30,085 nt of DNA from IMG/VR virus record IMGVR_UViG_3300043446_001349, positions 1 through 30,085 of that record; one strand, 5' to 3'. This DNA is from a virus. The notes beneath the pieces are model-generated. The model did not search any database. It worked only from the letters and a program-made list of their open reading frames with translations, and had not been told where the DNA came from. A program made the translations under genes and the position numbers. Below, piece after piece: positions 13,620-17,747 of the stretch (positions are counted from its first letter, which is position 1; the number at the start of each line of letters is the position of its first letter).

Positions 13620-13924
13620 ATATCAATTGGGACACGTTGGAACGTTTGTGGAATGGTGAACGGATGCGCAACCTGCGTATCCTTCACCCGCGGGCCGCGT
13701 TGTTGGTGTTGCAAATCGCAATGGCCGGGTTGCGCAATCGTGTCCCCGAAGGCGGAATCATTCGTGACATCACCGTGCGTGTGCCAATTGGTGATTTGGT
13801 CCCCGCCGGGAAGACGCGCACCAACGCGGTGTCAGCCCTCAACCGCGCCCGCGCCACCGGGATCATTTCGTGGGAAACACGGTACAACGGGAACGGTTGC
13901 ATTTACACGGTGCATGTTGGATGA
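13616..13924 (+). CDS. Winged-helix-like DNA-binding candidate
   Basis: A 102-residue protein. LHPRAALLVLQIAMAGLRNR is followed by VRVPIGDLVPAGKTRTNAVS, ALNRARATGIISWETRY and a beta hairpin with GCIYTVHV; helix, turn, recognition helix and wing can be placed in that order. Possible regulator or replication accessory protein. ATGA-coupled on both sides. Confidence 0.6.
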   Translation: MNINWDTLERLWNGERMRNLRILHPRAALLVLQIAMAGLRNRVPEGGIIRDITVRVPIGDLVPAGKTRTNAVSALNRARATGIISWETRYNGNGCIYTVHVG

Positions 13925-14406
13925 AACATGACAATGAACAATTGAGGATTGAACAACGCAAAACCGCCACCGTGGTGGCGCGTGCGTGGGGAATCGGCCG
14001 ATTGGTTGAGGGTGCGGAATTTGCCCGCGTGGATTATGTGGGACACCTCACCGCCGATGGCCCGGCGGTTTGTGCCATCGAAATAAAAAACCCGACCAAG
14101 GCGCATCCGCGCCAAATGGTTGATTTGGAAAAGGCGCGGGCGGTGTTGGCGTGGGATGTGCGCCACAACCTACCCGCGGTGATTGTGTGGCGATGGCCAA
14201 CCCTGCGCGGCGGTTGGGAAATCCGTTGGACGCGGCCGCGCTTGTGGGAATGGAATTGGTTGACGCGGGAACCGTTGGGTTTCCACATGTCGATGTTCCA
14301 ACGTGCGGACCGCATCGGCACGAATGACATTGACCGGGTGGTGTGGATTCCATCCGAAACATTGCGGCCGTTGGCCGTCAATCCGATTGCAAACGAAAGG
14401 GAATGA
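13921..14406 (+). CDS. PD-(D/E)XK nuclease-like protein
   Basis: A 161-residue protein with a compact nuclease core: GRLVEGAEFARVDYVGHL supplies Asp38, CAIEIKNP supplies the E-x-K (Glu54, Lys56), and the following helix QMVDLEKARAVLAWDV carries the usual supporting residues. A beta strand AVIVWRW completes the fold. The size resembles VRR-NUC or resolvase-like phage nucleases. The C-terminal part is Trp-rich (WEIRWTRP, LWEWNW). A role in recombination or junction processing is inferred. ATGA-coupled to its neighbours, with an extra GAAAGGG before the next gene. Confidence 0.68.
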   Translation: MKHDNEQLRIEQRKTATVVARAWGIGRLVEGAEFARVDYVGHLTADGPAVCAIEIKNPTKAHPRQMVDLEKARAVLAWDVRHNLPAVIVWRWPTLRGGWEIRWTRPRLWEWNWLTREPLGFHMSMFQRADRIGTNDIDRVVWIPSETLRPLAVNPIANERE

Positions 14407-15419
14407 ATGTGGTTGTATGTACCAAATACATTTTGTCATTGTGTTCCGGAGTCGGCGGATTGGAACTTGGATTGGCAATTGCCACAAACGGAAGAATTCG
14501 CACGGTGTGTCACGTTGAACGGGAAGCATATGCGGCGGCAATATTGGCAACGCGAATGGAACAAGGGGAATTGGATCACGCGCCTATTTGGTCCGATGTT
14601 GCCACATTCGATGGCAAACCGTGGCGCGGAATTGTTCATGGAATCGTTGCGGGATACCCATGCCAACCATTCAGCACCGCCGGATTGCGACGTGGTGAAC
14701 ATGACCCGCGGCATATATGGCCGCGAATTGTGGGAATCATTGAAGACATCCAACCGGAATTCGTGTTTTTCGAAAATGTCTCCGGACACCTCACTTTGGG
14801 ATTCGATTCCGTCGCAAACGATTTGCAAAAAATGGGTTTCAACATTGCGGCGGGACTGTTCACTGCGTCGGAAGTCGGCGCGCCACATAGACGGGAAAGA
14901 CTCTTCATATTTGGGTTGGCCAACAACGCGTGTGTCAATGGCAAACGGCCCGTGGCGTGCGAAAAGCGGCAAGGATTTCCGACATCTAGAAACGATTGCT
15001 GTGGATTGGCCGACACCAGTCGCGGCAATGTCAACAAGTCCCGGGAAAAGATTTGGGTGCGACAACCTAGTCACGAAATCGGAACATTGGCCGACGCCAA
15101 GTGCGAACGATCACAAGGGCAGTGCTTCGCCAGGTCAACGGCGGGGACAATTGGACGAAGCGGCGGAACAAACCTGGGAATATTCCCACCAGGACCAAAA
15201 GATTTCACACGATGGAAAAAAATCATTTCCGAACGGCCCGACCTTGCGCCGGCGATTGAATCCGAAATTTGCGGAATGGTTGATGGGATGGCCAATCGGA
15301 CACACCGCCTTCGGGCAATTGGAAACGGCGTTGTGCCATTATGTGCCGCAAATGCATTCGTATCTTTGTGCGCGGCTTTGGACTCTACACGAATTGACCA
15401 ACGCAACGAAAGGGAATGA
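14403..15419 (+). CDS. C5-cytosine DNA methyltransferase
   Basis: A 338-residue enzyme that would transfer a methyl group from SAM to cytosine C5, probably to protect phage DNA. Motif I ILSLCSGVGGLELG (10-23), motif IV GYPCQPFS with nucleophile Cys87, motif VI FFENVSGHL with Glu124, motif VIII PHRRERLFIFG (161-171), a low-similarity target-recognition region (172-280) with LAN/LADT/LADA repeats, and a C-terminal CGMVDGMANRTHRLRAIGNG with motif X at 303-320. All motifs are in one frame, so the gene appears intact. Overlaps the preceding stop (ATGA) and has GAAAGGG upstream. The target sequence cannot be read. See the separate entry on the second frame. Confidence 0.9.
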   Translation: MNVVVCTKYILSLCSGVGGLELGLAIATNGRIRTVCHVEREAYAAAILATRMEQGELDHAPIWSDVATFDGKPWRGIVHGIVAGYPCQPFSTAGLRRGEHDPRHIWPRIVGIIEDIQPEFVFFENVSGHLTLGFDSVANDLQKMGFNIAAGLFTASEVGAPHRRERLFIFGLANNACVNGKRPVACEKRQGFPTSRNDCCGLADTSRGNVNKSREKIWVRQPSHEIGTLADAKCERSQGQCFARSTAGTIGRSGGTNLGIFPPGPKDFTRWKKIISERPDLAPAIESEICGMVDGMANRTHRLRAIGNGVVPLCAANAFVSLCAALDSTRIDQRNERE

Positions 15420-15432
15420 ACATGGCGGATGA
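14908..15432 (+). other. Second open frame inside the methyltransferase, resembling an alternative MTase C-terminus
   Basis: In the +1 frame, open for more than 1 kb, the DNA that reads LADT/LADA in the methyltransferase reads WPTT, WPTP and WPTP (at ttggcc-ac repeats near 14916, 15006 and 15087). The DNA for CGMVDGMANRTHRL reads LNPKFAEWLMGWPIGHT. Both WPTP repeats and LNPxFxEWLMGWPxGWT are recognisable endings of other phage C5 methyltransferases. Either the frame is dual-coding (+1 frameshift product), or it is a fossil of a family-wide frame switch. No obvious slippery site was identified. Confidence 0.5.
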
Positions 15433-16456: not shown

Positions 16457-16650
16457 ACGGATGCGAATATTGCCACGGGACCGGCCGCCGCATCATTTGC
16501 AAATCAATCCGCGGGCGCACGTTGACCGCGCCATGTGAAGTTTGCACCGCATTGTTGGAAAATGCGCGGCGTGCATTTGAACGCATGTTGAGGCGCAAAC
16601 AAACCGAAATCAATCGGCAATCAATCGGAAATCAATCGGAACCCAAATGA
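16453..16650 (+). CDS. Small zinc-finger-like protein
   Basis: A 65-residue product with two CxxC pairs, CEYCHGTGR at the N-terminus and CEVC at about residues 28-31, resembling half of a DnaJ-type zinc ribbon. The rest is a basic helix (ARRAFERMLRRKQTEINRQ). It could bind nucleic acid or a host protein. ATGA-coupled to both neighbours. Confidence 0.65.
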   Translation: MNGCEYCHGTGRRIICKSIRGRTLTAPCEVCTALLENARRAFERMLRRKQTEINRQSIGNQSEPK

Positions 16651-17747
16651 CACCACACGCATCCGGCAAATTGTGGACGATTCACCACGGGAATTGTTTG
16701 GACGTGATGCGCACCATGCCCGCGGAATCCGCTCACGCCATCGTCACCGACCCACCATACGGATTGGCGTTCATGGGAAAGAATTGGGACCGCGCCGTGC
16801 CGGGTCCGGAATTTTGGGTTGAGGCGTTGCGGGTTGCCAAACCCGGTGCGCACATGTTGGCCTTCGGTGGAACACGGTTGTTTCACCGTTTGGCGGTGGC
16901 CATTGAGGATGCCGGATGGGAAATCCGGGATTGCGTGATGTGGGTTCATGGGATGGGGTTCCCAAAATCACACAACATTGGGAAGGCGATTGATCGGGAA
17001 CGCGGTGCGGTGCGCGAACAAATCGGACCCAAACGCCGCGGTGCGCAAACCGAATCGACCGGACGATATGGTGCATGTGGTGATGGAATCGTTGACACAA
17101 TTCCCGCCACGGATGATGCCCGCAAATGGGATGGTTGGGGAACCGCGTTGAAACCATCATGGGAACCAATCATCATGGCACGGAAACCGTGCATTGGAAC
17201 CGTTGCCGAAAACGTGGTGGCCACGGGTTGCGGTGCAATCAATGTGGATGCGTGCCGCGTTCCGATGGGTGATGAATACAACCCTGATTTGGTGCATCGT
17301 CAACACCAATCCAATGGTGCAATCAAAGGCGCGTTTGGTGCGGCCGCGTTGATCGGGAAGGAAATCCCCATGTATAAACCCGGCGGCCGTTGGCCTGCAA
17401 ATTTGGTGCATGATGGTTCTAACGATGTCTTGCGATTGATGCCGGATGCGGGCGTTGGTTCCGCGGCCCGCTTCTTTTATTGCGCCAAGGCGAACAATTC
17501 CGAACGGTATGAAGGCGCGGCCGACAATGACCACCCCACAATCAAATCAATGGAATTGATGCGTTGGTGCGTGCGCCTCATCACCCCGCCGGATGGGGTT
17601 GTGTTGGACCCGTTCATGGGGTCCGGATCCACCGGCAAAGCGGCCGTGGCCGAAGGATTCCGTTTCGTTGGAATCGAATTGGAACAACGATATTGCGACA
17701 TTGCCGCGGGCCGGATCGAATCCGAACACAATTTGTTCAATGCGTGA
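16647..17747 (+). CDS. DPPY-type DNA methyltransferase (N6-adenine or N4-cytosine)
   Basis: A 366-residue amino-methyltransferase of the permuted (beta-like) order: motif IV AIVTDPPYGL (31-40) comes first and the SAM-binding motif I LDPFMGSGSTG (320-330) near the C-terminus, followed by FVGIELEQRYCDIAA. The DPPY tetrad suits N6-adenine methylation, but N4-cytosine cannot be excluded. The long central insert (about 105-300) is the likely target-recognition domain and contains WGTALKPSWEPIIMARKP, typical of phage members. There is no partner endonuclease, so it is an orphan enzyme, likely protective or regulatory. ATGA-coupled to the zinc-finger gene; the last gene of the plus arm. Confidence 0.9.
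   Translation: MTPHASGKLWTIHHGNCLDVMRTMPAESAHAIVTDPPYGLAFMGKNWDRAVPGPEFWVEALRVAKPGAHMLAFGGTRLFHRLAVAIEDAGWEIRDCVMWVHGMGFPKSHNIGKAIDRERGAVREQIGPKRRGAQTESTGRYGACGDGIVDTIPATDDARKWDGWGTALKPSWEPIIMARKPCIGTVAENVVATGCGAINVDACRVPMGDEYNPDLVHRQHQSNGAIKGAFGAAALIGKEIPMYKPGGRWPANLVHDGSNDVLRLMPDAGVGSAARFFYCAKANNSERYEGAADNDHPTIKSMELMRWCVRLITPPDGVVLDPFMGSGSTGKAAVAEGFRFVGIELEQRYCDIAAGRIESEHNLFNA

Follow-up and report, generated by a model that had tools for sequence, protein, structure and literature searches.

A phage C5-cytosine methyltransferase probably divided between two fully overlapping genes

The stretch of DNA analysed here (the window), an IMG/VR virus record of 30 kb (30,085 nucleotides), comes from a tailed phage with portal, terminase and capsid genes and a RecT-like protein. 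It contains two plus-strand genes that overlap completely in different reading frames and that, with a probability that we put at about 0.87, encode the two chains of a single C5-cytosine methyltransferase. The frame-0 gene, alpha (14403..15419, with its ATG at 14403 and its stop at 15417–15419), would provide the catalytic core, motifs I–VIII, together with the C-terminal motif X helix, and the +1-frame gene, beta (14407..15432, 341 aa, beginning MWLYVPN and with its stop at 15430–15432), would provide the target-recognition half, consisting of WPTP units, and motif IX. Each subunit would have its own ATG, the second 4 nt after the first and both served by one ribosome-binding region, and the chains would then assemble into one enzyme. 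The part of alpha that lies over the WPTP region would be mostly a disordered spacer, and the part of beta that lies over motifs I–VIII mainly a leader held open so that the ribosome can reach the functional half. At the level of sequence we can demonstrate that both frames are open and constrained, along with their motif content, starts and breadth; we infer the assembly, activity and target site of the alpha/beta enzyme.

Alpha is recognisable as a C5-cytosine methyltransferase by the catalytic PC motif GYPCQPFS and the ENV motif FFENVSG in its core. It matches phrog_363 and also Pfam PF00145 (E=5.7e-32), the latter over residues 30–204 of the longer ORF, covering only motifs I–VIII. The match between its profile and M.HhaI is restricted to the same motifs, and comparison with the structures of M.HhaI and M.HaeIII gives a match only over some 170–180 residues. 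An IX-like xLMGx motif is absent from alpha in 73 of 74 homologues. Motif X, ending in HRLRAIGNGVVP, is present in the alpha frame at 15297..15338 (plus strand), where it overlaps motif IX of beta by 10 nt. In the AlphaFold model of alpha pLDDT exceeds 90 over most of residues 11–170, the chain is disordered from about 186 to 255 and ordered again from about 298 to 338; the disordered stretch overlies the WPTP region of beta, and order returns at motif X.

The beta ORF extends 13 nt beyond the alpha stop, in agreement with the preliminary description of this DNA, which held that the +1 frame is open for more than 1 kb and runs past the methyltransferase stop; the interval given there, 14908–15432, does take in the C-terminal half of the overlap, but not the whole of it, which starts at 14407. 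The peptides quoted for the two frames are present where they were placed. Beta carries the WPTP units and RLNPKFAEWLMGWPIGHT, corresponding to the target-recognition half and motif IX of C5 enzymes. The units span 14917..15099 on the plus strand, with WPTT at 14917 and WPTP at 15007 and 15088, and the same DNA gives LADT (15006–15017), LADA (15087–15098) and their neighbours in the alpha frame, which goes on to HRLRAIGNGVVP ending at 15338; a recurring DNA word, TTGGCCGACRCC, is read as LAD(T/A) in one frame and as WPT(P) in the other. Motif IX of beta, LNPKFAEWLMGWPIGHT, lies at about 15256..15306 (plus strand), and like the WPTP units it was placed by alignment to the Moonbeam profile discussed below. 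Taken alone, beta matches phrog_1008, 'DNA methyltransferase' (E=1.4e-27), and tblastn of the +1-frame translation found matches in 55 phage genomes. The suggestion that two endings treated as separate families, phrog_363 for alpha and phrog_1008 for beta, are two frames of the same DNA is correct. Beta belongs to no Pfam or NCBIfam family, and a PDB sequence search with its profile returned no meaningful match and no solved relative.

The openness of the +1 frame exceeds what alpha would impose on it. When synonymous codons were shuffled, preserving the alpha protein and codon usage, the longest +1 run averaged 118 codons and the observed 336 was reached in 0 of 5000 shuffles; in the same test nothing unusual was seen in the +2 frame or in the +1 frames of ten other genes of the window. 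Homologous loci were collected in two sets, one made up of matches to a DNA pattern encoding WLMGWPxGWT in the +1 frame plus other fetched loci, the other chosen by alpha N-terminal peptides only. Over 111 loci the +1 frame has 71 stops against 499 expected, and the +2 frame 1562 against 1369 expected. Region-wise counts on loci pre-filtered for an open beta were dropped as circular, and the loci selected by the alpha N-terminus were used instead: over codons 1–160 these have 7 +1 stops against 119 expected in IMG/VR viral contigs, and for bacterial genomes the figures are 2 against 80. The same test on eighty canonical single-chain C5 methyltransferases gives no such depletion (443 against 436), and in single-chain enzymes of the Moonbeam and Babsiella types it is slight or none (111 against 120 and 145 against 161).

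The two genes begin at a tandem start, ATGAATG (14403..14409, plus strand), made up of the alpha ATG at 14403, a TGA at 14404–14406 and the beta ATG at 14407. In 133 of 245 homologues the beta ATG lies exactly 4 nt past a start codon of alpha, typically as RTGAATGAGYTGG. In Paenibacillus phages beta begins within alpha and both are annotated, as in Paenibacillus phage Diva, where one of the frames is listed as 'g49 internal gene'. The +1 frame is kept open through its first half, something that independent initiation needs and a downstream frameshift does not; we infer from sequence that both chains are expressed separately. The preliminary description had proposed a +1 frameshift that makes two enzymes from one gene. 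With a programmed +1 ribosomal frameshift close to where motif VIII ends, the alpha core would be joined to the C-terminal half of beta as a second, longer form of the enzyme; both frames are open at the boundary, and a chain of I–VIII, WPTP units and IX would mirror the order of the single-chain Moonbeam enzymes. We consider this improbable, however, as the product in the window would lack motif X, the avoidance of +1 stops over codons 1–160 is of no use to it, beta has a conserved start of its own, and at the boundary there is no alpha stop and, judged by eye only, no evident shift site. Two parts of one enzyme also fit better than two alternative enzymes because neither frame, by its motif content, holds a complete one, alpha being without motif IX and beta without the catalytic core.

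The AlphaFold model of beta on its own is of low confidence (pLDDT 59.5, pTM 0.25), and the putative role of beta in target recognition is therefore argued from homology. The best local alignment of the beta profile to one canonical single-chain C5 family (L006 type) sets IX against IX but is not significant (E=0.26–0.53), and comparison with a profile of Moonbeam methyltransferases was used in its place. Here beta columns 168–303, from the WPTP units to motif IX, align with residues 212–329 of the single-chain Moonbeam methyltransferase (E=1.8e-11), a region between motifs VIII and X. The order in that single chain is I–VIII, LLPTPSAADG/LSTPQARDYKG, RLHPAFPEWMMGWPAGWV and DQLRIIGNGVVP, so that WLMGWP sits at the position of motif IX. 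This homology of the C-terminal half of beta to the VIII–X region of single-chain methyltransferases, a region that alpha is without, together with the shift of motif X itself into beta in some lineages, makes it most doubtful that beta is an overprinted protein of unrelated function (for example anti-restriction or regulatory) and not a methyltransferase subunit, even if its want of a Pfam or NCBIfam methyltransferase match and its weakly but detectably conserved N-terminal half would suit such a protein.

Constraint was scored with profiles built from homologues of less than 60% alpha identity. The beta of the window scores 307.5 bits against 175.1 +/- 14.3 for alpha-synonymous shuffles, and its alpha 386.9 bits against 166.6 +/- 16.2 for beta-synonymous shuffles; each half of beta and the final 40% of alpha outscore every shuffle, and 12 of 12 loci tested agree. 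Each frame holds sequence information that the other does not imply, and with the stop depletion given above these scores bear out the expectation that both frames are constrained across homologues. In the N-terminal half of beta the shuffle profile scores reveal conservation that is weak but detectable. Substitutions counted across 35 close pairs are distributed over alpha codon positions 1/2/3 as.24/.11/.65 and.21/.15/.64 within codons 1–110 and as.31/.16/.53 in codons 111–160, then as.60/.22/.18 in the WPTP region,.67/.18/.15 in motif IX (67% thus falling on alpha position 1, which is the beta wobble position) and.26/.15/.58 from motif X to the end; ordinary neighbouring genes, as a control, give.21/.14/.65. 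The position free to vary is the alpha wobble over motifs I–VIII and X and the beta wobble over the WPTP region and IX, and the dominant frame therefore switches twice, with alpha dominant over I–VIII, beta over WPTP/IX and alpha once more over X. Only weak selection on beta amino acids is seen in the first half of beta, which may have little function beyond staying open, because substitutions there are distributed over the codon positions much as in ordinary single-frame genes.

The overlapping arrangement is found across several classes of alpha, of the window, LFAGAGGG, epsilon15 and Paenibacillus types, and hundreds of phage and bacterial genomes have the same hidden second gene. Among 128 loci with the beta motif, the alpha frame contains motif X in 120 and, further upstream, a methyltransferase core in 109; many of the rest are truncated contigs or variants that escape the search pattern. 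Motif X is in the beta frame at four loci (L020, L025, L037 and L115), and at L020 and L025 alpha ends just after motif VIII with both IX and X in beta, so the parts must work together. Similarly, in Mycobacterium phage Steamy alpha holds I–VIII and beta the recognition region, IX and X. Among 32 Moonbeam-type methyltransferases IX and X are in frame 0 in 25, in +1 in three and in +2 in two. Three arrangements thus coexist: a single chain; alpha with I–VIII and beta with recognition region, IX and X; and alpha with X fully overlapping a beta with IX. The earlier proposal that lineages swap frames by indels is upheld by the Moonbeam types and by the four loci with motif X in beta, but not in the form of one working frame at a time with the other a decaying relic, which we regard as very improbable in spite of the swaps among Moonbeam relatives and in L020/L025: both frames are stop-free, open and conserved together in more than 200 divergent loci (245 of 257), a decaying frame would gain stops as the +2 frame does, and the profile-shuffle and stop-count tests largely refute such a reading. 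An artefact of base composition or codon usage, for which one might point to the many long alternative ORFs of the window, is refuted by synonymous shuffles that keep codon usage and protein and never reproduce the open frame, and by the canonical C5 methyltransferases, which show no +1 stop depletion in the same test.

A search of IMG/VR for in-frame (I/L/M)VAWPTP fusions matched 84 stretches, and among those at L375–L454 there was no methyltransferase with core and WPTP in one frame. One locus with the core and WLMGWP in one frame (L063) was left out, since a one-base indel seems to have disrupted both genes there.

Turning to the origin of the split enzyme, a single-chain ancestor would have undergone a frameshift after motif VIII and, in the order that we propose, subsequently a compensating shift between IX and X. 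In closely related mycobacteriophages (L467–L498 and L499:1001-2091) the methyltransferase is one gene or two in different frames (73/74 in Poenanya, 77/76 in Steamy), and therefore indels exchange frames within one family. We also lean, with distinctly less assurance than for the two-chain enzyme itself, towards a large and old class of phage C5 methyltransferases that exists only as fully overlapping two-frame pairs, which would have arisen by frameshifts flanking the recognition half of a single-chain ancestor and been locked by co-translation from tandem starts, with motif X (and possibly recognition modules) mobile between frames and beta as an unrecognised family in hundreds of genomes. 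In single-chain Moonbeam/Babsiella genes the +1 frame just past motif VIII contains LPTP-type units (L464 at about 2089–2622 and L466 at about 2329–2832), annotated in Babsiella as gp55, 'DNA methylase domain protein'; these may be remnants, or else belong to a short overlapping gene that is still in use. A three-part enzyme is possible at another locus (L067:5853-7379), where alpha ends after VIII, several W(P/A)T(P/A) units are present in beta, and motif X is encoded by an ORF of its own, 91 codons long and in the alpha frame.

The principle of a split enzyme is already known, because it has precedents in M.EcoHK31I and M.AquI (PMC3404938). The former, from E. coli and specific for YGGCCR, consists of two polypeptides, the larger with motifs I–VIII and X and the smaller alone with IX, its predicted recognition domain being placed in the large subunit; the latter is a two-polypeptide C5 methyltransferase split near the recognition region, before IX–X (PMC3404938, summarising for M.EcoHK31I Lee, Kam and Shaw 1995). 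The window resembles M.EcoHK31I in having a large subunit with I–VIII and X and without IX, which is in the other subunit, and differs from it in that the recognition-type WPTP region is in beta, not in the large subunit. The small gene of M.EcoHK31I is reportedly inside the large one in another frame, and its product is said to be short (about 176 aa) with an internal start; on that account the window shares with it a beta in another frame of the alpha gene (14407–15432 against 14403–15419), but has a beta as long as alpha, at 341 aa, that starts 4 nt after it. L020, L025 and Steamy are M.AquI-like, with I–VIII in alpha and WPTP/LPTP, IX and X in beta; unlike in M.AquI, motif X of the window remains in alpha and the genes overlap completely. 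The single-chain Moonbeam/Babsiella-type methyltransferases of mycobacteriophages have the parts of the window in the order I–VIII, LPTP units, EWMMGWPxGW (IX) and GNG (X), but all in one frame. What is new, given the 1995 precedent for the principle, is the complete overlap, the pairing of start codons in tandem, the occurrence in phages and prophages alike, the codon-level frame switch and the mis-annotation, none of which was found in the open literature searched, which includes few subscription journals. The ShiLan-domain HNH endonuclease, encoded out of frame in a phage methylase gene (PMC11855218), is likewise a protein concealed within the gene of another. As an identity for beta it does not fit, ShiLan being an inserted homing endonuclease and not part of a methyltransferase.

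Annotation pipelines usually miss or mislabel the second gene. Only the beta frame is annotated, with alpha omitted, at L462:1846-2784, L002:2490-3656, L001:2565-3680 and L293:2995-4086, in the public records of Klebsiella phage PIN1, Acidovorax phage Alfacinha3, Synechococcus phage Ssp-JY39 and a Sphingomonas plasmid; in PIN1 and Alfacinha3 the CDS labelled methyltransferase is the beta frame, without a catalytic core. Many 'DNA methyltransferase' annotations in phages would accordingly denote one of two subunits, sometimes in the wrong frame. If the two-subunit reading is true, clones expressed alone or codon-optimised would be inactive, because recoding alpha destroys beta. The loci also make up a long, well-replicated set of same-strand overlapping genes in which the switch of dominant frame can be measured along the gene, and the fixation of a split enzyme in two frames is now open to study because single-chain, AquI-like and EcoHK31I-like forms survive.

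Of the neighbouring genes, a RusA resolvase gene lies directly downstream of the alpha/beta pair. The ORF upstream (13921..14406, plus strand, 161 aa) is of unknown family, with no match in PHROG or Pfam; it is in the same frame as beta, and its stop, the TGA at 14404–14406, shares nucleotides with the alpha start and is followed at once by the beta ATG. Its AIEIKNPT..KA.PRQ stretch resembles, by eye only, the core of a PD-(D/E)XK nuclease, and for this reason it is conceivable as a restriction partner. At 16647–17747, 1.2 kb downstream, the window encodes another DNA methyltransferase, this one of N4/N6 type (PF01555).
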